A stretch of DNA of 64,000 bases from Terriglobia bacterium (lineage in GTDB: Bacteria; Acidobacteriota; Terriglobia; Bryobacterales; Bryobacteraceae): the NCBI GenBank assembly GCA_020073305.1, contig JAIQFK010000012.1:1-64000 (forward strand), written 5' to 3'. Position numbers and translations under genes: made by a program. The notes below the pieces were generated by a model, which worked only from the letters and a program-made list of their open reading frames with translations, did no database searches and was not told where the DNA came from. Positions 42,004 through 63,839 of the stretch are shown here, piece by piece; positions within the stretch are counted from its first letter, which is position 1, and each line of letters opens with the position of its first letter.

Positions 42004-42405
42004 TTAGTCCTTAACGGACACGCTGGAAACGTCGGATACGCCCACGCGTCTCGCGCGCTGAACGAAGGATTTGTCGAAAGAAACAAACGCGGCGCCGGGA
42101 GGCCTGCTACTCAAGTGCATCGCGCCGGCGAGTTCCATTCCGTGTTCTGTGAGGGCGAGCGCGGCGGCCACCGATGACTCATCCTCCGCATGAACGTTCT
42201 TGAGACCGAGTAACTTCACAAATGCGTCACGGATTGCGCTCTCCTCGAACCCATATAGGCTGCGGAGCACCCAACTGGTTTCTAGCAACACCGTTTTCGC
42301 GATCCAGACTGGCCCTGATGCAAACAGGGAGCGCGCAGCGGCGGCCTGCTTGGGTTCGTCGCCAGTCAGCAACCGGACCAGGACGTTAGTATCGACCGCG
42401 GTCAT
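42004..42405 (-). CDS. PIN-domain toxin, VapC-like (possibly degenerate)
   Basis: A 133-residue PIN-domain protein of the size expected of VapC ribonucleases. The first acidic site is Asp5 (MTAVDTNVLVRLL), the second Glu42 (KTVLLETSWVL) and the last Asp111 (VSFDKSF). The third acidic residue, usually the Asp of a DxADALHL motif, is Gly94 here (GMELAGAMHLSS), a change reachable by one base. PIN nucleases need this quartet for metal binding, so activity may be lost. The gene overlaps the antitoxin by 20 bases, as usual for vapBC. No other defence gene is intact nearby. Confidence 0.82.
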   Translation of the reverse strand: MTAVDTNVLVRLLTGDEPKQAAAARSLFASGPVWIAKTVLLETSWVLRSLYGFEESAIRDAFVKLLGLKNVHAEDESSVAAALALTEHGMELAGAMHLSSRPPGAAFVSFDKSFVQRARRVGVSDVSSVSVKD

Positions 42406-42652
42406 GGCGTCGCATCACTTCGCGGCCAATCGCAGCACGCATCTGCGCCGGCGTTTTCGATTTGCGTTTGGACCGCAGACAGCCGGCTACCTCTTCGAGG
42501 ACGGTTTTGGAGAATCGGGCGGCGGGACGAAGCAGAACTCCGTCACGGGTCTCCTCGACCGTGAACTCCGTGCCCGGGACCCACTCGCGGGACACACGAA
42601 TGTTCTTCGGCAGGACGATCTGGCCCTTGGTCGACAACCGCGTGGTTTCCAT
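42386..42652 (-). CDS. AbrB/MazE-fold antitoxin, VapB-like
   Basis: An 88-residue protein, first gene of the pair. METTRLSTKGQIVLPKNIRV is the swapped-hairpin DNA-binding start of the AbrB/MazE fold. The C-terminal half (about 45-85) is charged and likely wraps the toxin. ATG at 42652 is chosen over an upstream in-frame codon at 42682 because the fold begins there; the earlier ten residues fit no family. Such antitoxins neutralise the PIN nuclease and repress their own promoter. Confidence 0.85.
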   Translation of the reverse strand: METTRLSTKGQIVLPKNIRVSREWVPGTEFTVEETRDGVLLRPAARFSKTVLEEVAGCLRSKRKSKTPAQMRAAIGREVMRRHDRGRY

Positions 42653-42762
42653 CGGTAAGACTTCAGTAAGATCGTAACACAACCCCTGGGGCGATGTGGC
42701 GCTACTGGCTAATTCCTTTACTGGTGCGGTAAGGCATCGTATTGTATATCTGACTGGTTACC

Positions 42763-43321: not shown

Positions 43322-44383
43322 TTACTCCGGTCTTACCAGCATCTTCACGTGTTTGTCCTTCTCGTTGAGTAATCCGTAGTAACCTTTGCCGACGAGGTCG
43401 TCGAGGCCGATGTGATCGGTGATGAGCAGGTCGGCGCGGAAGCGTGGGTCGGTCATCATGCGGATGGTTTCGTCGTAGAGGCCGTAGCCGCTCATGCTGC
43501 CGGAGATGGTTTTCTCGCGGAAGACGACATCGGTGAGATCGATGGCTGCGGGTTTTTCGAAGACGCCCATGATGACCAGGCGGCCGCGAGTCCGGGTCAG
43601 CTTGGCCGCCATCAGCACCGTCGCCGGCTGCCCCGCGCACTCCATGACGAGGTCGAAGCCCGCGCCATCGGTGATCTCGAGTGCGCGTTTTTCGGGATCT
43701 TCACACAAAGGGTTGATGACGGCATCCGCGCCGCATTGCTTCGCGGCTTCGATGCGCCGGTCCGCCATCTCGATCGCGATCACACGTTTGACGCCGCGGA
43801 GGCGCGCGGCCATGAGCGCCATCAGGCCGATCGGCCCGGCGCCGACAATCGCGACGTTGTCTTCAGGGCCAGGCTGGCCTTGCGCGACGGCGCGCACCGT
43901 GGACGAGAAGGGCTCGACCAGCGCACCAATTTCGTCCGAGATTGCGGCGGTCAGGTGGTAGCACTGGTAGGCATTCAGGTTCAGACGCTCGGCGAGCGCG
44001 CCGCCGGTCCATGACGTGCCCAGGAATGCGACGCGATCGCACTGCGCCATCGAACCGGACCGGCACCAGCGGCACTTTCCGCAGCCGATGATGGGGCAGG
44101 CCGCGATGCGATCGCCGACCGCCAAATTCTCGACCCCTTCTCCCACGGCGGTGACTTCGCCGGACATCTCGTGGCCGATGATGACCGGAGCTTGCACACC
44201 GGTGACCGGATGCGGGTGGTCGAGTGGAATGTAGAGAGGACCGCCCATGTACTCGTGCAGGTCGGTGCCGCAGATGCCGCACCATGCCACTCTGACTTGC
44301 ACCTGCCCGGGCGGGGGCGCGGGAGGCTCGCCGACCTTTTCGATACGGACGTCCTGACGCCCGTGCCAAACCGCAGCTTTCAT
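43322..44383 (-). CDS. Zinc-dependent alcohol dehydrogenase (MDR family)
   Basis: A 353-residue medium-chain dehydrogenase. Catalytic zinc ligands are Cys38 (CGICGTDLHE), His71 and Glu72 (GHEMSGEV). The structural zinc loop has Cys101, Cys104, Cys107 and Cys115. The NAD(P) loop is AIVGAGPIGLMALMAA, followed by an acidic residue in AIEMADRR, which favours NAD. DLHEYMGGPLYIPLDHPH is like butanediol/threonine/sorbitol dehydrogenases. It likely oxidises a polyol or secondary alcohol. It is the last gene of the leftward operon: its start overlaps the glycosidase-like gene's stop by four bases (ATGA). Confidence 0.9.
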   Translation of the reverse strand: MKAAVWHGRQDVRIEKVGEPPAPPPGQVQVRVAWCGICGTDLHEYMGGPLYIPLDHPHPVTGVQAPVIIGHEMSGEVTAVGEGVENLAVGDRIAACPIIGCGKCRWCRSGSMAQCDRVAFLGTSWTGGALAERLNLNAYQCYHLTAAISDEIGALVEPFSSTVRAVAQGQPGPEDNVAIVGAGPIGLMALMAARLRGVKRVIAIEMADRRIEAAKQCGADAVINPLCEDPEKRALEITDGAGFDLVMECAGQPATVLMAAKLTRTRGRLVIMGVFEKPAAIDLTDVVFREKTISGSMSGYGLYDETIRMMTDPRFRADLLITDHIGLDDLVGKGYYGLLNEKDKHVKMLVRPE

Positions 44384-45813
44384 GCGCTTTCTTTCTTGAT
44401 GTAGAGAACCGACGGGCCGGTGAACGGCACCGCGAACGATTGCTGCTTGCCGCCGGTGATACTGCCGCCGAGCGTAATGGTCCCCTCAGCCGGCAGCATC
44501 CATTCCACGCTGAATCGTCCCTGCGCGCGCGACAGGTCCACAGAGACTTGATCGCCTTCGGGCAGGTAGACCAGAAACTCGCGCTCGGGATTGGCCAGGC
44601 AATAGCCGGTCGAGGCTAGTTCGTCGTGCGGCGCCGCGGAGGCAAGATCCATGCGGAGCGAGTAGGCGCGCGTGTATCCGATGGCCTTGCGCACCGGCTC
44701 CCAGGTCCAGTCGTCGCGCCGGTTCAGATCGCGCAACGGGTAGCCGGGGCGCGGCCCCCAGTTCACTTCGGGGCACGGACTGCCGGCGATGGGGTCCCAG
44801 CTATCCATCAGCAGCGTGTTATGTCCGCGGACAAAGCTCTTCCACGCCCAGCTCACGGTGCCCCCGTGGCCCCAAAGGTGGTCGGTATCGTTGACGCTGA
44901 CTTTCTTGCCGTCCCATGCGGGCGGATCGAAGAGGAATTTGCGGCCGAACGGAGAGATCCAGTCCGCGGGACTGGCCATCATCTCCTCCATGCGCTCGGA
45001 ACCCGCGCCAGTCAACCCGACCGGGTGCCGCTTTCCCTTCTCGGTTTCCATTTTGTGAACGGTATCGACCACCCACCAGTCCCAGTCCTTGACGCCTGCT
45101 TCGTTGATGACTTCGTAGAGCACGTTGTCGAGGCTGGCCACGGTATCGACCACCTTCTGGAGATAAGCTGCATGCAACTCGCGAACAGCCGGCTGGTCCC
45201 AGTCGACGACTTTATCGCCGTCTTTGTCGCCATCGATTCCGTTGATGTTGTTCTGCGCGTTGTAGGGGTGCCCCGACCAGGTCAGGCTGCCGCAATGATA
45301 CCCCTTGTTGGAGCTGAAACCCTGGAAAAGCTGCACCGCGCAGTAAATGCCGCGGTCACGGCATTCGGTGAGGCGCGCAAACATGCGGTCGAAATAGGCG
45401 GGGTTGAATTTTTTGAGGTCGAACTTCGGGCCGCCGTCGAGCGCCGTGCCAGGACCCGTGCGCATATAAAGGACGGGCTCGAACAGGATCTTGTCCGGCG
45501 TCCAAGGCGCCCAGGCCGACTGCTGCCATCCCCATAGCCGCATGAAGTTGTGGTTGTGGCTGAGCATCATGCCGAGGTAACCCTGCCAATCGAACGTGGG
45601 GACCGGCGCGACGCCCGTATCTTGCAGGTTGGCCCAGGTGTGGGCCCCCGTCAGGAAGACGGGCCGGCCGCTGGCATCGGCGAAGTAACGGGGATTCTGA
45701 GGGTGGACACGCAAGGGCCCCGTGGCCGGCCTCACGGTCTGGGCCGGGGCGTTCTTCCACGCGGCCGCCGCACTGAACGCTACTGCACTTTTCAGGAACT
45801 CGCGCCGATGCAT
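44380..45813 (-). CDS. Tat-exported glycosidase-like (GH-A/DUF4038-type) protein
   Basis: A 477-residue protein. ATG at 45813 (MHRREFLKSAVAFSAAAA) gives a clear twin-arginine signal, and AAAGGAG lies about eleven bases upstream. The barrel has RVHPQNPRYFADASGRPVFL, MMLSHNHNFMRLWGWQQSAW, and VLYEVINEAGVKDWDWW with a candidate acid/base glutamate (NE). The nucleophile position reads VSVNDTDHLWG, where an aspartate replaces the expected glutamate. A C-terminal beta domain (YLPEGDQVSVDLSRAQGRFS) ends the protein. It may release a sugar in the periplasm for the catabolic cluster, but its activity is uncertain. It is the middle gene of the leftward operon. Confidence 0.78.
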   Translation of the reverse strand: MHRREFLKSAVAFSAAAAWKNAPAQTVRPATGPLRVHPQNPRYFADASGRPVFLTGAHTWANLQDTGVAPVPTFDWQGYLGMMLSHNHNFMRLWGWQQSAWAPWTPDKILFEPVLYMRTGPGTALDGGPKFDLKKFNPAYFDRMFARLTECRDRGIYCAVQLFQGFSSNKGYHCGSLTWSGHPYNAQNNINGIDGDKDGDKVVDWDQPAVRELHAAYLQKVVDTVASLDNVLYEVINEAGVKDWDWWVVDTVHKMETEKGKRHPVGLTGAGSERMEEMMASPADWISPFGRKFLFDPPAWDGKKVSVNDTDHLWGHGGTVSWAWKSFVRGHNTLLMDSWDPIAGSPCPEVNWGPRPGYPLRDLNRRDDWTWEPVRKAIGYTRAYSLRMDLASAAPHDELASTGYCLANPEREFLVYLPEGDQVSVDLSRAQGRFSVEWMLPAEGTITLGGSITGGKQQSFAVPFTGPSVLYIKKESA

Positions 45814-45829
45814 ACTTGACTGTGCTCCT

Positions 45830-46588
45830 TTATGCCAGTTGCCCGCCGTCCACAAACAGCAACACACCGTTGATGTAGCTGGCTTCTTCCGATGCCAGAA
45901 ACAGCGCCGGGCCGGCTACATCCTCGGGCGTCCCGAGCCGGCCAAGCGGGATAAGACCTCGGGCCGGATCGTACTTTTTCATGAATTCGGGGTCGTTGAG
46001 CACCGGCACCGTCAACCGCGTTTTGATGAACCCGGGGCCCAGCGCGTTGGAGTTGATGCCGTGCGGGCCAAGTTCCCGAGCGAGTGTCTTGGCCAGGAGA
46101 AACACGCCGGCTTTGGAGACGTTATAGTGGCCCAAACTGGCTTCGGCGTCCCAGCAGTTTGTGGACGCCATAAAAACCAGTTTGCCCCGCTTGCGGGCCA
46201 CCATGTGCGGTGTAACGGCTTTCGACACCAGAAAGGCGCCGCGCAGATTCGTGTCCACGGTGTTGTCCCAGGTTTCCTCGGTAATGTCCATGAACGGCAC
46301 AGACGGGGCGATCCCGGCGACATACATAAGCACGTCGATACGGCCGTACCAATCGATGACTTGCTTGACCATAGCCCGCACTTGGGCCGAGTCGCGCACA
46401 TCGCACGGCACGGGTCGCGCGTCAGAGCCCGCGGCGCACATCTCCCGAACCGTGGCCTCCATCATGGGACAGTCCATATCCGCGATCACGACGCGAGCCC
46501 CTTCGCGCCCGAGCTGCACGCCAATGGCTTTCCCGATGCCTTGCGCCCCGCCAACGACCAGTGCCACCTGGTCTGTGAACCGCGCCAT
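45830..46588 (-). CDS. SDR-family oxidoreductase with altered cofactor motif
   Basis: A 252-residue classical short-chain dehydrogenase. ATG at 46588 is chosen because GGAG lies nine bases upstream and the Rossmann fold starts six residues later. The catalytic set is Ser142, Tyr155 and Lys159 (GHYNVSKAG), with PHGINSNALGPGFIKT and FVDGGQ following. Two usual motifs deviate: TGxxxGIG is VVGGAQGIG and NNAG is YVAG. Asp37 and Asp39 in VVIADMDC favour NAD. It is the first gene of the leftward operon, whose other members are the glycosidase-like gene and the zinc dehydrogenase, and it faces the rightward operon. Confidence 0.88.
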   Translation of the reverse strand: MARFTDQVALVVGGAQGIGKAIGVQLGREGARVVIADMDCPMMEATVREMCAAGSDARPVPCDVRDSAQVRAMVKQVIDWYGRIDVLMYVAGIAPSVPFMDITEETWDNTVDTNLRGAFLVSKAVTPHMVARKRGKLVFMASTNCWDAEASLGHYNVSKAGVFLLAKTLARELGPHGINSNALGPGFIKTRLTVPVLNDPEFMKKYDPARGLIPLGRLGTPEDVAGPALFLASEEASYINGVLLFVDGGQLA

Positions 46589-46680
46589 CCCGTTCATCTC
46601 CATTCGTCGGGTTCCCCTATAACGGTAAAATACTATTCGTCCCAGGAGCGCCAGTCTGTAACTATCGCCCAAATTTTTGT

Positions 46681-46690
46681 TGCTGCAGCA
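46681..46690. promoter_or_regulatory. Palindrome TGCTGCAGCA in the divergent control region
   Basis: A perfect ten-base palindrome about 90 bases from the leftward start and 155 from the rightward start. Candidate regulator site, by position only. Confidence 0.3.
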
Positions 46691-46721
46691 CGGTTGCCTG
46701 GCTCCTGTAAAGTGGGATTTC

Positions 46722-46740
46722 AAAACTCTTTCAGAGTTTT
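46722..46740. promoter_or_regulatory. Perfect 8-bp inverted repeat, candidate operator
   Basis: AAAACTCT-TTC-AGAGTTTT is a perfect inverted repeat in the 255-base region between the divergent SDR starts. It lacks a T-run on either side and is not at a gene end, so an operator is favoured over a terminator. The AraC-type protein encoded at 52806 is the natural candidate ligand, though AraC sites are more often direct repeats. Confidence 0.45.
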
Positions 46741-46843
46741 CTTATATCCATCGAAGCTTGGTCCGTAGGACTCTGGATTGGGTCTGGCCAAGCCAGCGGG
46801 GGTGGGGTGTGCCCGAACGTGGCCGGTGGTCAGGAGGTTGGCG

Positions 46844-47596
46844 ATGAGGCTCAAGGACAAAGTGGCCTTGGTGACCGGTGGCGCGTCGGGTATTGCCCGG
46901 GCAACCGCGGAATTATTTGCACGTGAAGGCGCCAAGGTCGCGGTCGCCGATTACAGTGCGGATGGGGGGAACGAAACCGTCAAGAGCATCAAGGCCGGCG
47001 GCGGAGAGGCGATCTTCATCAAAGTGGACGTATCTGATTCCGCGCAAGTGGCGCGGATGGTGGATGCGGCACTCCAGGCGTACGGGCGCATCGATGTCCT
47101 CTTCAATGGCGCCGGCATTCACCGCTTCGGAACGGTTCTCGAAACCGACGAGCAGACTTGGAACCGCGTGATCTCGATCAACCTCACCGGGACATACTTG
47201 TGCTGCCGTGCCGTGTTGCCGCACATGATCCGCCAGGGAGGCGGATCGATCATTAACACTTCTTCGACGGTTGGCGTGCACGACGCCGCCGCGAATATAG
47301 CGGCCTACTGTAGTTCCAAGGGCGGAGTAACATTACTCACCAAGGCCATGGCGATCGATCATGCCAAGCAGGGTGTCCGCGTGAATGCGCTGGTTCCAGG
47401 GGCTACAGACACGCCTATGATTCGGAACACGTTCGCCCCTGACGCGCTCAAAGCGCTGGCGGACTCCCATCCGGTCGGGCGGCTGGGGCGCCCCGAAGAG
47501 CTGGCGCAGGCCGTATTGTTCCTGGCGTCCGACGATGCTTCGTTCGTGACAGGCTCGGCCATGTTCGTGGACGGCGGCCAAACGGCCAAGATCTGA
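46844..47596 (+). CDS. SDR-family oxidoreductase
   Basis: A 250-residue classical short-chain dehydrogenase. AGGAGG lies six bases upstream of the ATG at 46844, which fixes the start. VALVTGGASGIARATAELF is the cofactor loop, with alanine in place of the last glycine. Asp36 in VAVADYSA favours NAD. FNGAGI replaces NNAGI, and the active set is Ser140/Ser141, Tyr155 and Lys159 (AAYCSSKGG). It is the first gene of the rightward operon, followed 21 bases later by the lactonase. A sugar or polyol dehydrogenase acting before the lactonase is a natural reading (inference). Confidence 0.9.
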   Translation: MRLKDKVALVTGGASGIARATAELFAREGAKVAVADYSADGGNETVKSIKAGGGEAIFIKVDVSDSAQVARMVDAALQAYGRIDVLFNGAGIHRFGTVLETDEQTWNRVISINLTGTYLCCRAVLPHMIRQGGGSIINTSSTVGVHDAAANIAAYCSSKGGVTLLTKAMAIDHAKQGVRVNALVPGATDTPMIRNTFAPDALKALADSHPVGRLGRPEELAQAVLFLASDDASFVTGSAMFVDGGQTAKI

Positions 47597-47617
47597 ATGT
47601 TTGTCTGGGAGGTTTGT

Positions 47618-48520
47618 ATGGTTTTTGCGAGCGGTTTCATGGCTCCGGAGGGTCCGGTGGCCCTTCCGGACGGAACCTGGCTGATCGTGGAGGGCGGGGC
47701 CGAGCGAGGCTGCATCACCCATATCAGCGCAGACGGCCAGACCAAGCGCATGATCCAGAAGACTGGCCGGCCGAACGGCCTGGCGGTCGATTCCGAAGGC
47801 GTGATTTGGGTGGCCGAGTCCAAAATGCCCTCGCTGGTGCGGCTGACCATGGAGGGCAAGGCAGAGGTAGTTGCGACCGGCTGCGACGGGGAAGCCTTCC
47901 TGTTTCCGAATGACCTTTGCTTCGGGCCTGATGGCGGCCTCTACCTGACAGACTCAGGCGTATTCATCAATGAATTCGCGCCCAACAACCAGATCCGGCC
48001 CGACTATATGGATGTTAAATATGATGGCCGCGTGTATCGCGTCGATGTGGAGACGGGCAAAGTGAAAAAGCTGGACAGCGGAATCAAATTCACCAATGGC
48101 ATCGCCTTCGGCCCGGACCGGCTGCTATATGCCAATGAGACGCTCACGGGCAACATCTACCGTTACGAATGGAAGGGCGGGGCTATCGCCGGTCCGCGAA
48201 TCCTGTTTGGAAATGTGATCCGGCCGGACGCGCCGCCGGGATGGAAGGGTCCAGATGGCATGGCTTTCTCGGCGGATGGCAGGCTTTATGTGGCGGTGTT
48301 CGGGCAGCGTGACGTGACCGTCCTTGGCAAGAAGGGCGAGGTCGTCGAGCGCATTCAAACGGCCGGCAAATTGGCCACCAACGTGGCTTTCGCACTACCC
48401 GGCCGGAAGCAGATCCACGTCACGGAGTACGAATTCGGGCAGGTAGAAGCATTCGATGTTCCCACCGACGGTCTACCTTTGTGGGCCGGACCCAGGGCAA
48501 GCGGTACCGCGGCCGTTTGA
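47618..48520 (+). CDS. SMP-30/gluconolactonase-like protein
   Basis: A 300-residue six-bladed beta-propeller. ATG at 47618 is preferred because GGGAGG lies five bases upstream; ATG at 47597 would sit directly on the previous stop. Family signatures are MAPEGPVALPDGTWLIVEGG (Glu11), RPNGLAVDSEGVIWVAES, FPNDLCFGPDGGLYLTDSG, FTNGIAFGPD and PDGMAFSADG, which give the Glu/Asn/Asp metal site. Enzymes of this type open sugar lactones in the cytoplasm. It has no signal. The stop overlaps the permease start (TGATG). The upstream dehydrogenase could form the lactone. Confidence 0.87.
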   Translation: MVFASGFMAPEGPVALPDGTWLIVEGGAERGCITHISADGQTKRMIQKTGRPNGLAVDSEGVIWVAESKMPSLVRLTMEGKAEVVATGCDGEAFLFPNDLCFGPDGGLYLTDSGVFINEFAPNNQIRPDYMDVKYDGRVYRVDVETGKVKKLDSGIKFTNGIAFGPDRLLYANETLTGNIYRYEWKGGAIAGPRILFGNVIRPDAPPGWKGPDGMAFSADGRLYVAVFGQRDVTVLGKKGEVVERIQTAGKLATNVAFALPGRKQIHVTEYEFGQVEAFDVPTDGLPLWAGPRASGTAAV

Positions 48521-49896
48521 TGGATAGCTCCACGTCGCAAGGCGAGCAGAGCGATAGCATCCTGCGCCTGAGACGCGTCCTGACGCTTTGGGACCTAGTC
48601 CTTTACGGGCTCGTGGCGGTAACACCAAGCGCTCCTGCTACTGTTTTCGGTCTGGCGGAACTGCGGTCGCATGGGCACGCCGTGGTTACGATTCTGGCTG
48701 CGATGGTCGCCATGGTGCTGACCGCCATCAGCTACGGCAGGATGGCGGCGCTGTACCCCTCCGCGGGTTCTGCATACACGTACGTAGGCCGGGGCTTGCA
48801 TCCGTATCTGGGATTCGTCTCGGGCTGGGCGATGCTGCTCGATTACGTCGTCAGTCCACTGTTCTGCGTCATCTATGGCAGCCTTGCGCTGCAACGGGCG
48901 GTTCCCGCACTGCCGTATCCTTTCTGCGCCGCGCTATTCGCGGGTGGCATCACATACCTCAACCTGCGCGGAATCCGCTCGACGGCGCGCGCCAACCAGG
49001 TGCTGCTCACGTTCATGTTCGCGGTGCTTCTGAGCTACATTTTCCTCGCCATCCGGTACCTTCTTGCGCAGCACGGTCTCACGAGCCTGTTTTCGATCAA
49101 GCCGTTTTATGATCGCGCGACCTTCAACGTTCGTGAGATCGCGGGCGCGACCTCCTTCGCGGCGCTTACGTATCTCGGCTTCGATGCGGTGACGACGCTC
49201 GCCGAGGACGTGAAGAATCCGCGCCGCAACGTGATGCTGGCGGCCGTTCTTGTCTGCACGTTTACCGGCATCTTTGGAGGGTTGCTGGTATATCTGGGCC
49301 AACTCGCCTGGCCGGAATACAATACCTATTCGAACATCGAAACGGCATTCATCGAGGTGACGGGGCGCGTCGGCGGCGTCTGGCTTTTTCAGGCGATGGC
49401 GATCCTGCTCGTGGTGGCCAACATTGGAGCCGGGATGACCACGCAAGTGGGCGCTGCGCGCCTGTTGTTCGGCATGGGCCGCGACGACGTGATTCCCCGG
49501 CGGTTCTTCGCCCACTTGCACCCGGTGCGCAATACGCCCAATCGCAACATCTGGCTTATCGGGATTCTGGCCTACGCCGGCGCGCTGGTCATGAGTTACG
49601 AGCTGACGGCGGAGATCCTGAATTTCGGAGCCTTTCTTGGGTTCATGGGAGTGAATCTGGCCGTGATCTGGCAATTCTGGGTGCGGCGCGCGGAAGGGCG
49701 CGCGAGGGAGTTCTTCGCCGATATCGTGCTGCCCGGCCTCGGATTCGTGTTCTGCACGATAATCTGGTTGGGGCTGGGCGCGCCGGCCAAGATCGCGGGC
49801 GGCATTTGGTTTGTCATCGGGCTGGTTGTCCTGGCCACGCACACGCGAGGTTTCCAGCAGCCGATTGTCTTGCCCGACCCGGCGAATTACGAGTGA
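48520..49896 (+). CDS. APC-superfamily permease
   Basis: A 458-residue protein with about twelve membrane segments of the amino acid/polyamine/organocation type. LYGLVAVTPSAPATVFGL resembles the unwound first helix, AALYPSAGSAYTYVGRGL and GFDAVTTLAEDVKNPRRNV are family landmarks. APC carriers take up amino acids or, in some lines, other small polar solutes, driven by ion gradients. Substrate is unclear, and a sugar-catabolism context is unusual for the family. The start overlaps the lactonase stop by one base (TGATG). It is the third gene of the rightward operon. Confidence 0.85.
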   Translation: MDSSTSQGEQSDSILRLRRVLTLWDLVLYGLVAVTPSAPATVFGLAELRSHGHAVVTILAAMVAMVLTAISYGRMAALYPSAGSAYTYVGRGLHPYLGFVSGWAMLLDYVVSPLFCVIYGSLALQRAVPALPYPFCAALFAGGITYLNLRGIRSTARANQVLLTFMFAVLLSYIFLAIRYLLAQHGLTSLFSIKPFYDRATFNVREIAGATSFAALTYLGFDAVTTLAEDVKNPRRNVMLAAVLVCTFTGIFGGLLVYLGQLAWPEYNTYSNIETAFIEVTGRVGGVWLFQAMAILLVVANIGAGMTTQVGAARLLFGMGRDDVIPRRFFAHLHPVRNTPNRNIWLIGILAYAGALVMSYELTAEILNFGAFLGFMGVNLAVIWQFWVRRAEGRAREFFADIVLPGLGFVFCTIIWLGLGAPAKIAGGIWFVIGLVVLATHTRGFQQPIVLPDPANYE

Positions 49897-49914
49897 AACT
49901 GAGGAGATGGATCG

Positions 49915-50910
49915 ATGCCCATGAAGAAGTTCATCAACCGTCCTGAAAACATTGTGCCGGAGCTGCTAGAAGGTTTTGCTCTGTCGCACCCCAAGCAGAT
50001 CCGGCTGACAGGCAGCAACCTGGTAGCGAGGGCGACGCCCAAAGCCAAAGGCAAGGTGGGCGTGGTGACGTTGGGCGGCAGCGGCCACGAGCCGGGGTTG
50101 AGCGGGTTTGTTGGCGAAGGCATGCTGGATATCAGCGTGGCGGGCGAGATTTTCGCGGCTCCTGGCGCGCCGCGGTGCCTGGAAGCCATCCGGCTGGCGG
50201 ATTACGGCGCCGGCGTTCTCTTCATCGTGCTGAACCATGCGGGTGATGTCCTTTCCGCCAACATCACGATGGAAATGGCTAAGCGCGAGGGCTTGAACGT
50301 CAAGATGGCGCTGACGCACGAGGACATCGCCGGCGGATCGAATCCCGAAGACCGGCGCGGGCTGGTAGGGTTCCTGCCGGTATACAAAGTGGCCGGCGCA
50401 GCCGCCGAGCAGGGTGGCTCCCTCGATACCTGTCTGGAAATTGCGGAGCGCATGGGACGCAATATGCGAACGCTGGCGGTGGCAGTGCAGACGGCCACGC
50501 ATCCGTCGACCGGACAGCCGATTTTCGAGCTGGGCGATGATGAGATGGAAATCGGCATGGGGCAGCACGGGGAAGCCGGCACGGGCCGCATGAAACTGAA
50601 GACCGCCGATGAAACCGCCGAGATCGTGCTCGAAATGCTGTTGAAGGATCTCGAGGTGAAACCGGGCGAAGAGCTGCTCGTCATCGTCAACGGCGCCGGC
50701 GCCACCACTCTGATGGAGCTCTTCATTCTGTTCCGCCGCGTGCACCAAATCCTGAAAGCCAAGGGTATCAAGCTGGTGCGCAGCCAGGTGGGCGAGTTCA
50801 TCACCACCCAGGAGCAGGCCGGCTTCCAGTTGATGATCGCCCGCATGGATGCCGAGTTGATTCGCCTGTGGGACGCGCCCAGTAATGCGCCTTATTTTGT
50901 CGTGCGATGA
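49915..50910 (+). CDS. dhaK: Dihydroxyacetone kinase subunit DhaK-like
   Basis: A 331-residue DhaK-fold protein. His218 (MGQHGEAG) is the residue that binds the keto substrate covalently in DhaK, and His58 (GGSGHEPG) and Asp111 (HAGDVLS) complete the site at positions close to those of Escherichia coli. PMKKFINRPENIVPELLEGF is the usual start, preceded by GAGGAG. DhaK-type kinases phosphorylate dihydroxyacetone or related ketoses such as erythrulose. It is coupled to DhaL by a four-base overlap. No PTS-type DhaM is present in the window, so the phosphate source is either ATP on DhaL or an unlinked DhaM. The substrate in this operon is unknown. Confidence 0.92.
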   Translation: MPMKKFINRPENIVPELLEGFALSHPKQIRLTGSNLVARATPKAKGKVGVVTLGGSGHEPGLSGFVGEGMLDISVAGEIFAAPGAPRCLEAIRLADYGAGVLFIVLNHAGDVLSANITMEMAKREGLNVKMALTHEDIAGGSNPEDRRGLVGFLPVYKVAGAAAEQGGSLDTCLEIAERMGRNMRTLAVAVQTATHPSTGQPIFELGDDEMEIGMGQHGEAGTGRMKLKTADETAEIVLEMLLKDLEVKPGEELLVIVNGAGATTLMELFILFRRVHQILKAKGIKLVRSQVGEFITTQEQAGFQLMIARMDAELIRLWDAPSNAPYFVVR

Positions 50911-51569
50911 AGGACGGGATCACCAGGGACGACTTTGCACGTATGATCGCAGGCGCGGCGGCGTCGATTCGCGCGCAGCACGCTATGTTGTCGCAACTGG
51001 ACTGCGCAGCGGGCGACGGGGATCATGGCACCACCATGTTGCGGGCCGTCGAGCGCCTGGAAAAGTCTTTTGCGCCAGGCAGTCCGGAGGATCTCAAAGC
51101 CTGCCTGCGCGAAGCCGGCTGGAACGTACTGGGCGTGGACGGGGGAGCATCCAGTTCCCTCCTGGGCACGTTTTTTAGCGGCATGGCGGACGCGCCCGCT
51201 TGCGGCGCCTCAATCGGCGCCAGCGACCTCGCCGCGATTTTCGAGGCTGGGCTCGCAGCCATGCGGAAGCAGACCAAAGCCGAGCCCGGCGACAAGACCA
51301 TGATGGACGCGCTCGTGCCAGCGATCCAGGCGTTGCGCGCGGCGGCCGATGCCGGCAAGAGCGTAATCGAGGCCCTGCGCGATGCGGCGGGAGCTGCACG
51401 AGCGGGAGCGGAAGCAACGCGAAATCTTACGGCCCGCTATGGGCGGGCGAAACTCTTGGGCGAGAAGACGCGCGGGCACCAGGATCCGGGGGCCACGTCG
51501 ATGAGCTTGATGTTCGAGGGTTTCTGCAGCGGGTTTGAGGAATCGAAAGGAGAATCCGGCAATGCCTGA
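50907..51569 (+). CDS. dhaL: Dihydroxyacetone kinase subunit DhaL-like
   Basis: A 220-residue DhaL-fold protein that binds the nucleotide. [13 protein letters not shown] gives the three metal aspartates Asp32, Asp37 and Asp39, followed by [27 protein letters not shown] and [12 protein letters not shown], all expected. In ATP-dependent kinases DhaL delivers phosphate from ATP; in the PTS form it is reloaded by DhaM. It starts at ATGA inside the dhaK stop. The thiolase gene starts eight bases before its stop. Confidence 0.92.
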
Positions 51570-52470
51570 TTTTGATGATGTTCAGGACGGGAAAGACTAC
51601 CACATCGGCGTTCCGATGCAGGCGCACGCATTTTTTCTGAAGGGGAGCAATTCGCTCGACTGGGGGATGAAGAACCGGCTGGCACGCATCTTCAATCCGG
51701 CTACCGGAAGAACCGTGATGCTGGCGGTGGACCACGGCTACTTCCAGGGACCGACGACGGGCCTGGAGCGCATCGACGTGTCCATCGTGCCGCTGGTCCC
51801 TTATGCGGATGCGCTCATGATCACGCGCGGGGCGCTGCGCACCTGTATTCCCGCCGAGATGTCGAAACCGGTGGTGCTGCGGTCGACCGGCGGCCAGAGC
51901 ATCCTCAAAGAGCTCTCGAACGAACTGGTGGCCGTTGATGTGGACGATGCCGTACGGCTCAACGCTTCGGCCATGGCGGTCCAGGTCTATATCGGCGGCG
52001 AACACGAGCATCAGTCGATCGGCAATCTGGTCAAGGTGGTCGACGCCGGGAACCGGCACGGCATTCCGACGCTCGCTGTGACCGGAGTAGGAAAGGAACT
52101 GGTGCGCGACGCGAAATACCTGGGGCTGGCCACGCGCATCTGCGCCGAGCTGGGCGCGCACATCGTCAAAACGTATTACTGCGAAAAAGGCTTTGCGCGG
52201 GTGGCGGCAGCCTGCCCCGTGCCTCTGGTCATCGCCGGCGGCAAGAAACTGCCCGAACTGGACGCGCTGAAAATGGCGTACGAGGCCATTGATCAGGGCG
52301 CTTCGGGCGTCGATATGGGCCGTAACATTTTTCAATGCGAGGCGCCCATCGCCATGGTCCAGGCGGTCCGGGCCGTGGTGCACGATCAGGAGAAGCCCGA
52401 GAAAGCCTACGAGCTATATCTTTCGTTGAAAAAGGATTCGCAAGCTATCCCCAACAGGAGCCGATCATGA
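51562..52470 (+). CDS. lsrF: LsrF-type 3-hydroxy-5-phosphonooxypentane-2,4-dione thiolase
   Basis: A 302-residue class-I-aldolase fold protein. Near-gapless agreement with my memory of E. coli LsrF: GALDWGM-like [80 protein letters not shown] and [15 protein letters not shown]. Lys203 in HIVKTYY falls at the same residue number as the LsrF catalytic lysine. LsrF transfers the acetyl group of phospho-dione to CoA, giving DHAP and acetyl-CoA. The start ATG at 51562 follows AAAGGAG and overlaps dhaL by eight bases. LsrK, LsrR and the Lsr transporter are absent. Confidence 0.88.
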
Positions 52471-52778
52471 TCAAGAAAGAAACCACTCAAGTCGTGTGCG
52501 TTGCGGAATTCCGGGCCAAGGAAGGCAAAACGGACGAACTCATTGCCGCCATGCACCCGCTCATGCAGCCGACCCACAAGGAGCCGGCGTGCATCCGCTA
52601 CGAGCTCAATCAGCGGCAGGACGATCCCCGCTGGATCACCTACATCGAAAAATGGAAAGACAAGAAGACCTTCGACGAGCACTGCGCCATGCCGTATATC
52701 ACGCATTTCTTTAACGATGTGCAGCCCGGCCTGGTGGAGAAATTTGAGGTGAAACTGTACCAGGAGCTGCTGCCGTAA
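52467..52778 (+). CDS. ABM-fold monooxygenase/isomerase, LsrG-like
   Basis: A 103-residue small ferredoxin-like (antibiotic biosynthesis monooxygenase) protein: [60 protein letters not shown]. LsrG, which isomerises phospho-dione before LsrF, has this same fold and size. The ATG overlaps the lsrF stop (ATGA), with CAGGAG six bases upstream. I infer the LsrG role from the fold and from lying directly behind lsrF. The sequence could equally be a quinol monooxygenase. Confidence 0.75.
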
Positions 52779-52805
52779 ACCCTGAGCGCACAGGATAGGT
52801 TGACC

Positions 52806-53849
52806 ATGGGCGGGGCGCATGGAATAATGTCCCCCGTGCGCGTTCCCAGTAAGATGTGCGAAGACCAGGTTCGCGTGGTGGAGCCGCAGATCAATACCGA
52901 GGGGGTTCACGTCTGGCCTTTCGATCCCGCGTTCCCCGTCGATGTACGGTTCCTGAGCAGCAGCCAAGGCCACAACGTCCGAAAGAACCGCCACGATTAT
53001 TTCGAGCTCCTGTATCTGTGCGGCGGGACGGCTACCCTCGAGATCCAGGACCGCTCTTTGCCCCTTCATGAGGGCGATCTGGCGGTGGTTGGCAGCACGC
53101 TTTATCACCGGTTCGAATGCCGCACCGCGTCGCCCTTCACGGTAGGGGTGTTATTCTTCCAGCCGGATCTGATCCGGGCGGACGGCGGTCCCGACAACGC
53201 CGAGTACCTGACGCCATTCCTCCTGCAGGACTCACAGTTCCCTCACGTTGTTCCCGCGAAGAGCGGCATTCCCCACCAGGCCTTCGATCTGATGCAGCGC
53301 ATCCGAGTGGAACTGCCCGCCACGGCTCCGCGGGCCCGGCTCGCGGTCAAGACGTACCTGAAGATGATTCTCATCCTGCTGGTGAATCAATACGCCTCGT
53401 ATGCGGGAACCGTGGAGACCTTTCAGCGCCAGCAGCGCGCCCTCGAAAGGCTGCGACCGTTGTTCGAGCACCTGGAGGGAAACTTCAGCGACCCGATTCA
53501 AGTGCAGGAGGCCGCGAGAATCTGTGGGATGAGCGAGTCGCACTTCATGAGCTTTTTCAAACGGGCTACCGGGCAATCCTTCATGGCATATCTGAATCAC
53601 TGCCGGATCGAGCGCGCCCAGGCTTTGCTGGTAATGACCGACAAATCAGTTTCGGACATCGGCCAGGAGATGGGTTTCTGCGACCAGAGCTATTTCGGAA
53701 CCGTGTTTCGAAAACTAGTGGGGATGACGCCCGCCACATATCGCGCCAAATCCCGACCGCGGTCACCCGTCACGCGAGACCGTGGAGCCGCTACGGCGAG
53801 CCTGCTCACCCGAGTTGCCGCCGCGGGGAGCCTGGACACCACGCAATAG
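52806..53849 (+). CDS. AraC-family transcriptional regulator
   Basis: A 347-residue protein with a cupin-like ligand domain (about 40-150; HDYFELLYLCGGTATLEIQD, LPLHEGDLAVVG) and a C-terminal AraC double helix-turn-helix (about 225-325; IQVQEAARICGMSESHFMSF, SVSDIGQEMGFCDQSYFGTV). Cupin-AraC proteins sense sugars or related compounds. The start is ATG at 52806, with AGGAT upstream; ATG at 52827 or 52854 is also possible. It follows the ABM gene by 27 bases on the same strand, so it probably regulates the cluster. The control region at 46.6-46.8 kb is the likely target. Confidence 0.9.
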   Translation: MGGAHGIMSPVRVPSKMCEDQVRVVEPQINTEGVHVWPFDPAFPVDVRFLSSSQGHNVRKNRHDYFELLYLCGGTATLEIQDRSLPLHEGDLAVVGSTLYHRFECRTASPFTVGVLFFQPDLIRADGGPDNAEYLTPFLLQDSQFPHVVPAKSGIPHQAFDLMQRIRVELPATAPRARLAVKTYLKMILILLVNQYASYAGTVETFQRQQRALERLRPLFEHLEGNFSDPIQVQEAARICGMSESHFMSFFKRATGQSFMAYLNHCRIERAQALLVMTDKSVSDIGQEMGFCDQSYFGTVFRKLVGMTPATYRAKSRPRSPVTRDRGAATASLLTRVAAAGSLDTTQ

Positions 53850-59573: not shown

Positions 59574-61199
59574 ATGGCTCGCCACACTGTAGTCCTGGGT
59601 TTGACGCTGCTGCCGGTGTTGCTGGGAGCGCCGAGAGAGGTCTCATTCTCGCAGCCGGCAGGAAACATCGAAGCCTATGATTTTGTCGAGATCACGGTGA
59701 CCGTTGCCGGACCCGACGCGGGCAATCCGTTCACCGGCGCTACAGTGAGCGGTTCGTTCGGGAAAGCCGGCGCAGCCGCGCGCACCGCGGTCGAAGGGTT
59801 CAGCGATTCGCCGGACGGCAGCGTGTTCCGCATTCGCTTCATGCCGTCTTCGCCAGGCGACTATGCGTACTCAATCGCTTACCGTCAGGGAGACTTTGAG
59901 AAGACGAATACGGGAACGTTTCACGCCACCGACGGCCACCGGAAGGGCCCGATCCGCGTGGATGCGAAGTACCCTTGGCATTTCATCTGGGAAGGAACGG
60001 GCGAACACTATTTCTTCAACGGAACGACGGCGTTCTGGCTGATGGGCTGGCGCGACGAGAGCAGCATCGAGTACAGCATCGAACGCCTGCACCGGCTCAA
60101 GATCAACCGGCTCCGCGTGCTGGTGGCGGGTAATGCCAACATGTTCTGGGGCGAGCCGGTGATGACGGGCGAGAATTTTACCTATGCCCTGCGGCCGTGG
60201 ATTGCGAAGGATCCGGAGAGCTTCGACCACCCCGGCATCGACTACACGCGCTTCAACATTCCTTACTGGAAAAAATGGGAGCGCATGCTGCGGTTCGCGC
60301 GGGAGCGCGACGTGATCATCTCGGTGGTTCAGGATATTTCCACGCACAAGGCGCAGCCGGTGGAATATAGCGAGGACGAGCGGCGCTACCTCCGTTACAT
60401 GGTGGCGCGGCTGAGCGCGTTCTCGAACATCACCTACGACCTGGGAGACGACATGGACAGTTTCCGCGACGAGAAGTGGGTGCATGCAACCGGAACGCTG
60501 ATCGAGACCTGGGACCCCTACAAGCACCTGGGCACGAGCCATCCGGTGCATCGTGAGAACCAGGACCGGGCGTCCGAGTGGTTCGGATTCACCTCGATTC
60601 AGGACTGGCGCCGCCCGCAACACCCTCTGATGCTGGAGGAGCGGGAGATCCAAAAGAAGACCGGCCGCATCATTCCGCAAACCAACGAAGAGTACGGCTA
60701 CGAGGATCACTATCCGCACTGGGCGCCGGGGCCGGGGACGGACTCGCCGGAGACGCTGCGGCAAATGGCTTGGGAAATCGCCATGGCGGGCGCGTATGGA
60801 ACGGCGGGCGAGACCTGCCGCCGCGGCACGAACATCTGGCCCGACACGGGCGGCGGCTGGATCAACGGGCGGAGCGATGACACCACGGTCATGCTCAACG
60901 GCTACGAGCACATGGTGGATTTCTTCACCAGTTTCGAATGGTGGAAGACCGAGCCGCACGACGAACTGGTCAACAACGGCGCGTTTTGCCTGGCGAAACC
61001 CGGCGAGATCTACGCGGTGTATCTGCCGAAAGAAGGTGATGTGACGATCAAGCTCGAGCCGGGGACCTATCAGGCGACCTGGTTCAGCGCGTTCACTGGA
61101 CAGAAGATTCCGCTGCCGCCGGTTCAAGGGAGTGTTTGGACCTCGCCGAAGACCCCGGGCTGGCTGGACTGGGCGCTGCTCCTCGAGAAGCGGCGCTAG
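59574..61199 (+). CDS. Exported DUF5060/DUF4038 glycosidase-like protein
   Basis: A 541-residue protein with a signal peptide (VVLGLTLLPVLLGAP). Residues 20-120 form a DUF5060 beta domain (AYDFVEITVTVAGPDAGNPF). The DUF4038 barrel follows (YPWHFIWEGTGEHYFFNGTT, WLMGWRDESSIEYSIERLH). ITYDLGDDMD has Asp where many GH-A enzymes have the acid/base Glu, and PQTNEEYGYEDHYPHW offers a nucleophile Glu. GH140 apiosidases, in the DUF4038 group, also use an Asp/Glu pair, so activity is plausible. A C-terminal beta domain (YLPKEGDVTIKLEPGTYQAT) ends it. GGAGGG precedes the ATG. Confidence 0.82.
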   Translation: MARHTVVLGLTLLPVLLGAPREVSFSQPAGNIEAYDFVEITVTVAGPDAGNPFTGATVSGSFGKAGAAARTAVEGFSDSPDGSVFRIRFMPSSPGDYAYSIAYRQGDFEKTNTGTFHATDGHRKGPIRVDAKYPWHFIWEGTGEHYFFNGTTAFWLMGWRDESSIEYSIERLHRLKINRLRVLVAGNANMFWGEPVMTGENFTYALRPWIAKDPESFDHPGIDYTRFNIPYWKKWERMLRFARERDVIISVVQDISTHKAQPVEYSEDERRYLRYMVARLSAFSNITYDLGDDMDSFRDEKWVHATGTLIETWDPYKHLGTSHPVHRENQDRASEWFGFTSIQDWRRPQHPLMLEEREIQKKTGRIIPQTNEEYGYEDHYPHWAPGPGTDSPETLRQMAWEIAMAGAYGTAGETCRRGTNIWPDTGGGWINGRSDDTTVMLNGYEHMVDFFTSFEWWKTEPHDELVNNGAFCLAKPGEIYAVYLPKEGDVTIKLEPGTYQATWFSAFTGQKIPLPPVQGSVWTSPKTPGWLDWALLLEKRR

Positions 61200-62855: not shown

Positions 62856-63839
62856 TCAGGAGAGAAGCTCCTTCATGGTGCGCACGTAGCGGCGGCACGT
62901 CTCTTTCATGTCTTCGCCGGAGCCATCCTGCTCGAGCGAGAGGAAGCCGGTGAAGCCGATGCCTTTTACGGCGTCTGTGATGGCCTTGAAGTCCATCACG
63001 CCTTTTCCGATGGCGACGTATTCCCGCATGGTGGCGTCGACATCGCGCACGTGAAGATTCATAAGGTGCCGGTTCAATTTGTAGATCGCCGCGGGCGGAT
63101 ACTCCCGCTGATTCATGGCCCAGCCACAATCGAGATTGCAGCCGAATGCCGGGTCGCGAATCGAGTCCCACAATCGCAGGAAACTGTCAGTGACGGGCAT
63201 CATAGTATGCGTATGGTTTTCGATCGAGAAGTTCATCCCGTGGGCCTTCGCGCGCTCCAGGCAGTCTTTCATGGTCTGGGTGAACGAACGCCAGAGTTCG
63301 TCGAAGTCGTAGCCGGGCGCGATGTTGATGTGGAACTTTTCGCCGGGCTTCGGATCGCTCATAAAGTACCGCGGCAGGTATCCGGCTGACGGATCGCTCA
63401 ATTCCCGCGCCCAGGGAGCGACGATGTTGACCATGGGCGCGCCCAGTTTCTTAGCGATGAGGCAGCCGCGCTCGAAGTAATCGATGCTGCGATTTCGCTC
63501 GTCCGCGTTGCGGCTGGTCAGCCCTTCCACCACCGGCTGAAAGAACGGGAACTGGTTCACCACCAGATGATTTCGCTCCACCTGTTTCCGGATGCGATCA
63601 ATGGTGGCGTCGGTCCAATATTCGTCAACGTCCTGACGCGAATTCGCGATGAGTTCGATACTCTCGAATCCCAAGCTCGCGATGATGTCGATGGCCTCTT
63701 CCGGGTGCGCCCCAGGGGCGAGACTGTGGAAATTCCAGCTCACGGACCCAATCCTGGGCCGCGGTTTCCCCTGAGGTGGGCCCGCCGCGAGCTGCGAAGC
63801 ACCCACGCCAAGGGCGGAAATGAACTCTCGTCGCCTCAT
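62856..63839 (-). CDS. Tat-exported TIM-barrel sugar isomerase/epimerase
   Basis: A 327-residue protein starting MRRREFISALGVGASQLAAG, a Tat-type signal, with AGGAAG seven bases upstream. The barrel is of the AP-endonuclease-2/xylose-isomerase-like type: SLGFESIELIANSRQD, MNFSIENHTHTM, GCNLDCGWAMNQREY and NLHVRDVDATMREY, followed by GFLSLEQDGSGED. Glu in SIEN, Asp and Cys/Gly in NLDCGW, His in LHVRD and Glu in LSLEQD are the expected metal ligands. Unlike the cytoplasmic paralogue at 33404, it acts outside the cytoplasm. Substrate unknown. Confidence 0.83.
   Translation of the reverse strand: MRRREFISALGVGASQLAAGPPQGKPRPRIGSVSWNFHSLAPGAHPEEAIDIIASLGFESIELIANSRQDVDEYWTDATIDRIRKQVERNHLVVNQFPFFQPVVEGLTSRNADERNRSIDYFERGCLIAKKLGAPMVNIVAPWARELSDPSAGYLPRYFMSDPKPGEKFHINIAPGYDFDELWRSFTQTMKDCLERAKAHGMNFSIENHTHTMMPVTDSFLRLWDSIRDPAFGCNLDCGWAMNQREYPPAAIYKLNRHLMNLHVRDVDATMREYVAIGKGVMDFKAITDAVKGIGFTGFLSLEQDGSGEDMKETCRRYVRTMKELLS

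Follow-up and report, generated by a model that had tools for sequence, protein, structure and literature searches.

A conserved DhaK-DhaL-LsrF gene module of Acidobacteria and its possible role in sugar catabolism

The window analyzed here comprises the first 64,000 nucleotides of contig JAIQFK010000012.1 from a Terriglobia bacterium (family Bryobacteraceae; assembly GCA_020073305.1; genome size 6.98 Mb) and carries a cluster of eleven genes, i.e., ten enzyme or transporter genes and one for an AraC-type regulator (Table 1), in which the dihydroxyacetone kinase-like subunits DhaK and DhaL are encoded next to an LsrF-family class I aldolase/thiolase and a small protein of the ABM fold. The DhaK-DhaL-LsrF module is conserved, its DhaK forms a clade of its own with changed residues, its LsrF has an intact active site, and apiosidase-like glycosidases are associated with it. 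We read the locus as an inducible catabolic cluster with a kinase-and-cleavage core, a reading that in our judgment has an even chance of being correct, and its substrate is perhaps plant-derived. An earlier note on this DNA had proposed a route via DhaKL and LsrF to dihydroxyacetone phosphate (DHAP) and an acyl-CoA; comparative data partly support this central idea, and we infer every reaction, the reaction order, the substrate, and the inducibility from sequence.

Because the arrangement recurs in other genomes, it is not a product of chance. A scan of genome contigs with LsrF gave 324 relatives, of which the best 80 were retained; those closest to the window come from metagenome-assembled genomes of Bryobacterales, Bryobacteraceae, and Acidobacteriaceae. 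Of the LsrF places in a sample of the phylum, 40 were taken with wide flanks. Twenty loci have the window type of DhaK and a visible spot after DhaL, and in 18 of them LsrF lies there (the window and, by our own locus labels, L080-L085, L087-L090, L092, L093, L173, L204, L205, L161, and L162), and these carriers are Acidobacteria and two Bacteroidota plasmids. Loci from one genome or on contigs of equal length were counted once each (L079/L173, L077/L081, L078/L082/L172, L083/L215, and L092/L224). L266 and L272 stop before the LsrF spot and do not count for it, L086 (DhaL-LsrF with no DhaK seen) is outside this count but inside the 20-locus survey of neighboring genes, and L091 (LsrF 80% alike, DhaK not beside it) is not a module locus. 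The order DhaK-DhaL-LsrF-ABM recurs among the LsrF loci most like the window with variable partners, namely short-chain dehydrogenases (SDR), SMP-30, the APC permease, AraC, a medium-chain dehydrogenase (MDR), a D-threonine-aldolase-like protein, a PF04199 cyclase, and apiosidase-like glycosidases. The conserved unit thus consists of DhaKL, LsrF, and a small LsrG-superfamily protein and has no LsrK, LsrR, or Lsr transporter, as the earlier note had supposed; of the co-occurrence that it asked about, DhaK, DhaL, and LsrF stay together while SMP-30, the APC permease, MDR, and the SDRs come and go. Nor is LsrF elsewhere always found with LsrK, since among 106 other LsrF loci listed, a set biased to Acidobacteria and window-like LsrFs on often short contigs, a single one (L128) has LsrK (58%), there with LsrR and Lsr transporter relatives, and L155 has an LsrK relative of 23%.

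DhaK-type enzymes act on hydroxymethyl ketones, and our proposal has its core in the fact that the hydroxymethyl end on which they act is the end that would become DHAP after cleavage by LsrF, together with the altered kinase. Apiosidase-like glycosidases would release the starting sugar, and upstream of the kinase the dehydrogenases together with the SMP-30 lactonase-like protein would generate a ketone. The specialized DhaKL would act on a ketose-like compound that exceeds dihydroxyacetone in size and phosphorylate its terminal -CO-CH2OH. The ABM protein, replaced elsewhere by a weakly glyoxalase-like protein, would then shift the carbonyl as LsrG does for phosphorylated autoinducer-2 (AI-2), and LsrF would cut the chain into DHAP and an acyl-CoA by thiolysis or, less likely, an aldehyde, with AraC controlling the cluster. 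The full version, in which a sugar becomes a 1,3-dicarbonyl ketose that a dedicated DhaK, an ABM- or glyoxalase-like isomerase, and LsrF with CoA turn into DHAP and acyl-CoA in Acidobacteria and Bacteroidota, is tentative and somewhat unlikely to hold in all its parts. A 5-deoxypentulose oxidized at C4 would give the known LsrF substrate, and nothing selects that sugar over others. For the prior oxidation suggested in the earlier note, the oxidoreductase and SMP-30 genes are present, but SMP-30, MDR, and the SDRs are inconstant among relatives.

The window LsrF matches the family model NF006081 over its full length with 501 bits (cut-off 297), aligns to PDB entry 3gkf (E 2e-127), and is about 65% identical to E. 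coli LsrF. Its residues D57, H58, K203, G226, G227, D251, and R254 are intact, as they are in the module rows of the acidobacterial (14 of 14) and glyoxalase (3 of 3) types; these are the catalytic and phosphate-binding residues of LsrF described in PMC2728841, which also reports its class I aldolase fold and lysine. A quick tree of 64 rows groups E. coli LsrF and the clade of the window LsrF within a starred set of 19 rows. LsrF occurs in 59 of 297 genomes of the phylum sample, 28 of 399 of the class sample, and 4 of 200 of the order sample. Of the 29 LsrF places in the class sample, 23 have a ribulose-phosphate 3-epimerase, a class II aldolase-SDR fusion, or both as neighbors and lack DhaK, and six have the DhaK context. 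The former surroundings were seen at L037-L066 and L202-L227 (phylum and class samples), and in a second widespread context LsrF stands with an MDR dehydrogenase (L070-L076, L110-L115, L133, and L151), where several acidobacterial LsrFs match the LsrF profile only from position about 25-30. On plasmids, LsrF was found in 19 records, 11 of them enteric, and a Lacticaseibacillus plasmid place, the only one of its kind inspected, carries lsrK.

Possible, if doubtful, is an explanation in which LsrF is a simple ketose-1-phosphate aldolase: the ketose would come from an isomerase, DhaKL would phosphorylate its C1, and cleavage without CoA would yield DHAP and an aldehyde such as glycolaldehyde. The aldolase lysine and fold of LsrF would suit this, as would an IolO/tagatose-epimerase-like gene in L080, an IolE-like gene in L087, and, in L173, a cupin that we take by eye to be lyxose isomerase-like, and genes for an aminotransferase and a hydroxyaspartate-aldolase-like enzyme could handle the C2 product. 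A protein of the LsrG fold or a glyoxalase-like protein is, however, hard to fit into such a scheme, and the E. coli LsrF that lies near the window LsrF on the tree is a CoA thiolase that converts an AI-2-derived compound into DHAP and acetyl-CoA according to PMC8016206 and PMC7828210.

The kinase provides the second line of evidence. A tree built from 26 DhaK rows shows the window type as a separate clade (support 100/100) of the 17 rows from ABM-type and glyoxalase-type modules, while L095 and eight rows labeled as having no LsrF fall outside. H56, D109, and H218 are present in all 50 DhaKs compared, a set that omits L085 (partial DhaK), L084 (split DhaK), and L086 (no DhaK seen), whereas L/I51, A80, L104, H106, and Q217 are found in 19 of 19 clade members and in none of 31 others. 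We take His56, Asp109, and His218 of DhaK and Asp30, Asp35, and Asp37 of DhaL to be catalytic or Mg-binding residues, and DhaK positions 51, 80, 104, 106, and 217 presumably line the dihydroxyacetone pocket; the equivalents of D30, D35, and D37 are intact in the window DhaL, which exceeds the cut-off of its equivalog TIGR02365 (149.8 versus 138.3 bits). Window-type DhaKs (61-100% identity) occupy nine places in 8 of 399 genomes of the class, where other DhaKs (35-43%) occupy 29 places, and they occur in 2 of 396 genomes of the phylum sample; among 505 plasmid records, the two best-listed DhaKs (53.5% and 52.3%) adjoin LsrF, and the third reaches 43.8%. This comparison marks DhaK as a distinct subfamily with altered residues near the catalytic ones, which would suit a substrate other than dihydroxyacetone, and because the clade differs at five positions, plain dihydroxyacetone is probably not what it phosphorylates. 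No DhaM (TIGR02364) was matched in the window genome, so that DhaKL is probably driven by ATP as the likely donor. In the same genome, a second DhaKL (L169, contig C4) adjoins triosephosphate isomerase and an AraC paralogue 72% identical to that of the window, which suggests related inducers for the two loci.

That DhaKL is an ordinary dihydroxyacetone kinase, with LsrF serving another reaction and DHAP merely their common product, seems unlikely to us. The catalytic residues of both subunits are intact, and an apiose-type sugar could yield dihydroxyacetone; against this stand the clade-specific changes of DhaK and the second DhaKL, whose position beside triosephosphate isomerase makes it the likelier dihydroxyacetone kinase. 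The window DhaK also falls short of the DhaK equivalog TIGR02363 (322.9 versus a cut-off of 406.25 bits), though so does the second DhaK of the genome with 387.4 bits. Compared with DhaKL(M) dihydroxyacetone kinases, the two-subunit layout, the catalytic His and Asp, and the Mg-binding Asp residues are shared; the separate clade with its changed positions, the lack of a detected DhaM, and LsrF as neighbor in nearly all visible loci are not. A comparable pairing of aldolase and kinase was seen on a Citrobacter plasmid (L229), where a class II aldolase adjoins DhaK-DhaL and a second DhaKL is present with no annotated LsrF.

Glycosidases give one clue to the substrate. Within the cluster, the glycosidase-like protein has a twin-arginine-like leader by eye and scores 19.6 bits with apiosidase profile PF13204, below the cut-off of 26.5, and 25.1 bits with the C-terminal PF12904 (cut-off 22); its AlphaFold model has a mean pLDDT of 40.6, too low for the fold to be read. 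Relatives occur in L082 (80%), L267 (58%), and L265 (33%). The second apiosidase-like protein of the window, at 59574-61199, exceeds the PF13204 cut-off with 57.3 bits and may be linked to the cluster, judging from relatives in L085, L087, L089, and L090. Near it lies an AP_endonuc_2 protein (62856-63839, reverse strand; a xylose-isomerase-like TIM barrel) with a twin-arginine-like leader. Searches with glycosidases from the window, L080, L081, and L087 found PF13204-related proteins in 13 of 20 module loci (9 of 16 when these four donors are set aside) and in none of 49 LsrF loci of other context (40 with aldolase-SDR, 17 of these from the class of the window, and nine with MDR), a contrast that is descriptive only since the module loci are related by descent and many of the controls belong to other classes. 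Apiosidases above the PF13204 cut-off stand in series with SMP-30 and DhaKL-LsrF in L080, L083, and L084, not in the window cluster. The series of L080 is tight, comprising an apiosidase that matches the solved apiosidase structures 8t9w and 5msy, an epimerase-like TIM barrel, SMP-30, DhaK, DhaL, LsrF, ABM, and a D-threonine-aldolase-like gene, and contig C51 of the window genome has close relatives of the L080 apiosidase, TIM barrel, and aminotransferase (86%, 75%, and 88%) beside another APC permease and SDR.

DhaK-type apulose and L-erythrulose kinases belong to D-apiose and tetritol pathways, and these glycosidases make it worth weighing whether the cluster serves a modified D-apiose or L-erythrulose catabolism in which LsrF replaces transketolase or isomerases, an improbable reading that overlaps the others. 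GH140 apiosidases resemble our set in that relatives above the Pfam cut-off occur in several related clusters; that of the window cluster itself stays below. As in these kinase systems, some of our loci have a DhaK-type kinase with SDR, isomerase, or apiosidase-like neighbors, and a Pararhizobium plasmid with a split transketolase, an SDR, a TIM barrel, and DhaKL presumably resembles the apulose route. In the window cluster, LsrF and ABM stand where those pathways have transketolase or phosphate isomerases: a transketolase is not among its eleven genes, and the profile matches of the window, from searches not aimed at these enzymes, include no apulose-phosphate transketolase or 3-oxoisoapionate enzyme. 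Furthermore, the TIM barrels of L080 and the Pararhizobium plasmid have no blastp match to each other, and the tertiary carbon of apulose does not suit a retro-aldol cleavage releasing DHAP. Apiose as a proven substrate was rejected given the sub-threshold glycosidase of the window cluster and L092, L093, and L205, at which no apiosidase-like gene was found.

The small protein beside the kinase is less easily named. The nearest solved relative of the window ABM protein is SO0527; it has no blastp match to E. coli LsrG at E 0.01, none of the ten PDB matches of the ABM profile is a chain named LsrG, and a global alignment to LsrG reaches z 5.9 against 300 shuffles. The LsrG-like label of the earlier note holds at the level of the fold superfamily, and these matches do not support orthology to LsrG. 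In L161, L162, and L173, ABM is replaced by mutually alike proteins of 104-105 amino acids encoded ahead of DhaK. Those of L161 and L162 have no meaningful blastp match to ABM and no Pfam or NCBIfam match, while a profile of all three weakly matches glyoxalases (E 4e-4), a tentative label. Both folds have members that move protons next to carbonyls, and it is mainly because two different small folds share one place in the module that we propose an isomerase step. L161 and L162 are Bacteroidota plasmid loci of the order small protein-DhaK-DhaL-LsrF near chorismatase-like, Mal s 1-like beta-propeller, and SUMF1 genes.

The E. coli lsr operon (LsrK, LsrR, LsrACDB, LsrF, and LsrG) shares with the window an LsrF with the published active-site residues as well as a small ABM-superfamily protein and a kinase gene beside it. 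The window kinase is DhaKL and not the FGGY kinase LsrK, and profile searches agree with the earlier note that LsrK, LsrR, and the Lsr ABC transporter are absent from the locus, which has oxidoreductases, a lactonase-like protein, and glycosidases instead. AI-2 disposal with DhaKL replacing LsrK is very improbable, since the intact LsrF active site, the tree set shared with E. coli LsrF, and the adjoining ABM gene are outweighed by a genome in which LuxS was not found and whose best LsrK relative reaches only 28%, by the missing transporter, by an ABM protein not recognizable as LsrG, and by the association of the module with glycosidases.

Several observations weigh against our kinase-and-cleavage reading. 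A D-threonine-aldolase-like gene is present in 10 of 20 module loci and a class III aminotransferase in 3 of 20; the APC permease and these PLP enzymes may mean that the imported compound holds an amino group, such clues to a nitrogen-containing substrate are unexplained by the kinase-cleavage scheme, and no scheme uses every gene. Three of eight diagnostic DhaK columns lie within five residues of catalytic residues (p 0.04), a weak gathering. DhaK-linked LsrFs are not one clade but require five changes on the tree, at least four of them forced by starred branches, and the LsrFs of L161, L162, and L079 are not sister to that of the window; the partnership therefore probably arose, or acquired a different LsrF, on more than one occasion. 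L265 and L267 are DhaK-DhaL-ABM loci with ABM directly after DhaL and LsrF elsewhere in their genomes, no ABM was seen in L205, a frame break interrupts the DhaK of L084, that of L085 is incomplete, and upstream genes differ among the module loci. The deltaproteobacterial RpiB-DhaK-LsrF locus L095, finally, has a DhaK with ordinary residues, and its kinase-LsrF pairing is possibly independent of the window type.

As for the layout of the locus, all open reading frames (ORFs) named before are present at the same coordinates, and the gene set was described correctly apart from its count, as the eleven genes already include the AraC gene that had been added to them. We read the junctions TGATG (48520) and ATGA (52467) directly in the sequence, and the ORF coordinates give the overlaps at 50907, 51562 (eight bases), and 44383. 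The best NCBIfam relatives of MDR are IolM and threonine 3-dehydrogenase, all below cut-off, and its homologs in L082, L090, and L092 are 79-86% identical. A scan for promoters and terminators gave nothing above chance. At 42004-42682 on the reverse strand, a PIN-domain-like and AbrB-like ORF pair resembles a VapBC-type toxin-antitoxin unit by eye.

Table 1. Coordinates of the cluster genes and of a nearby apiosidase-like gene in the window.
Feature	Coordinates	Strand	Basis
MDR, Zn-dependent medium-chain alcohol dehydrogenase	43322..44383	-	ADH_zinc_N above Pfam cut-off
Glycosidase-like protein	44380..45813	-	DUF6298 and Collagen_bind_2; sub-threshold to apiosidase PF13204
SDR1, short-chain dehydrogenase	45830..46603	-	Profile matches
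SDR2, short-chain dehydrogenase	46844..47596	+	Profile matches
SMP-30/gluconolactonase-like beta-propeller	47597..48520	+	SGL above Pfam cut-off
APC-superfamily (amino-acid-type) permease	48520..49896	+	AA_permease_2 above Pfam cut-off
DhaK subunit, LsrF-linked clade	49915..50910	+	Dak1 above Pfam cut-off
DhaL nucleotide subunit	50907..51569	+	Dak2 above Pfam cut-off; TIGR02365
LsrF-family class I aldolase/thiolase	51562..52470	+	NF006081; published active-site residues
ABM-fold small protein, LsrG superfamily	52467..52778	+	ABM above Pfam cut-off
AraC-type regulator	about 52806..53849	+	ORF
Second apiosidase-like protein (PF13204 and DUF5060), near cluster	59574..61199	+	Profile match

Our searches of the open-licence literature turned up no account of DhaKL paired with LsrF, nor of LsrF with apiose or of dihydroxyacetone kinase with apulose, in line with the earlier note, to which the gene set was not known as a described pathway. 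Family models name LsrF an AI-2 thiolase, yet LsrK accompanies it in only one of the 106 listed loci of our biased sample, and a conserved DhaKL-LsrF unit with an altered kinase suggests a concrete, testable second role for this enzyme. It may represent a new entry to DHAP, and perhaps to acyl-CoA, in abundant and poorly understood soil bacteria. If the thiolytic sugar route is true, the enteric quorum-signal route of LsrF would form just one part of a wider metabolic chemistry.

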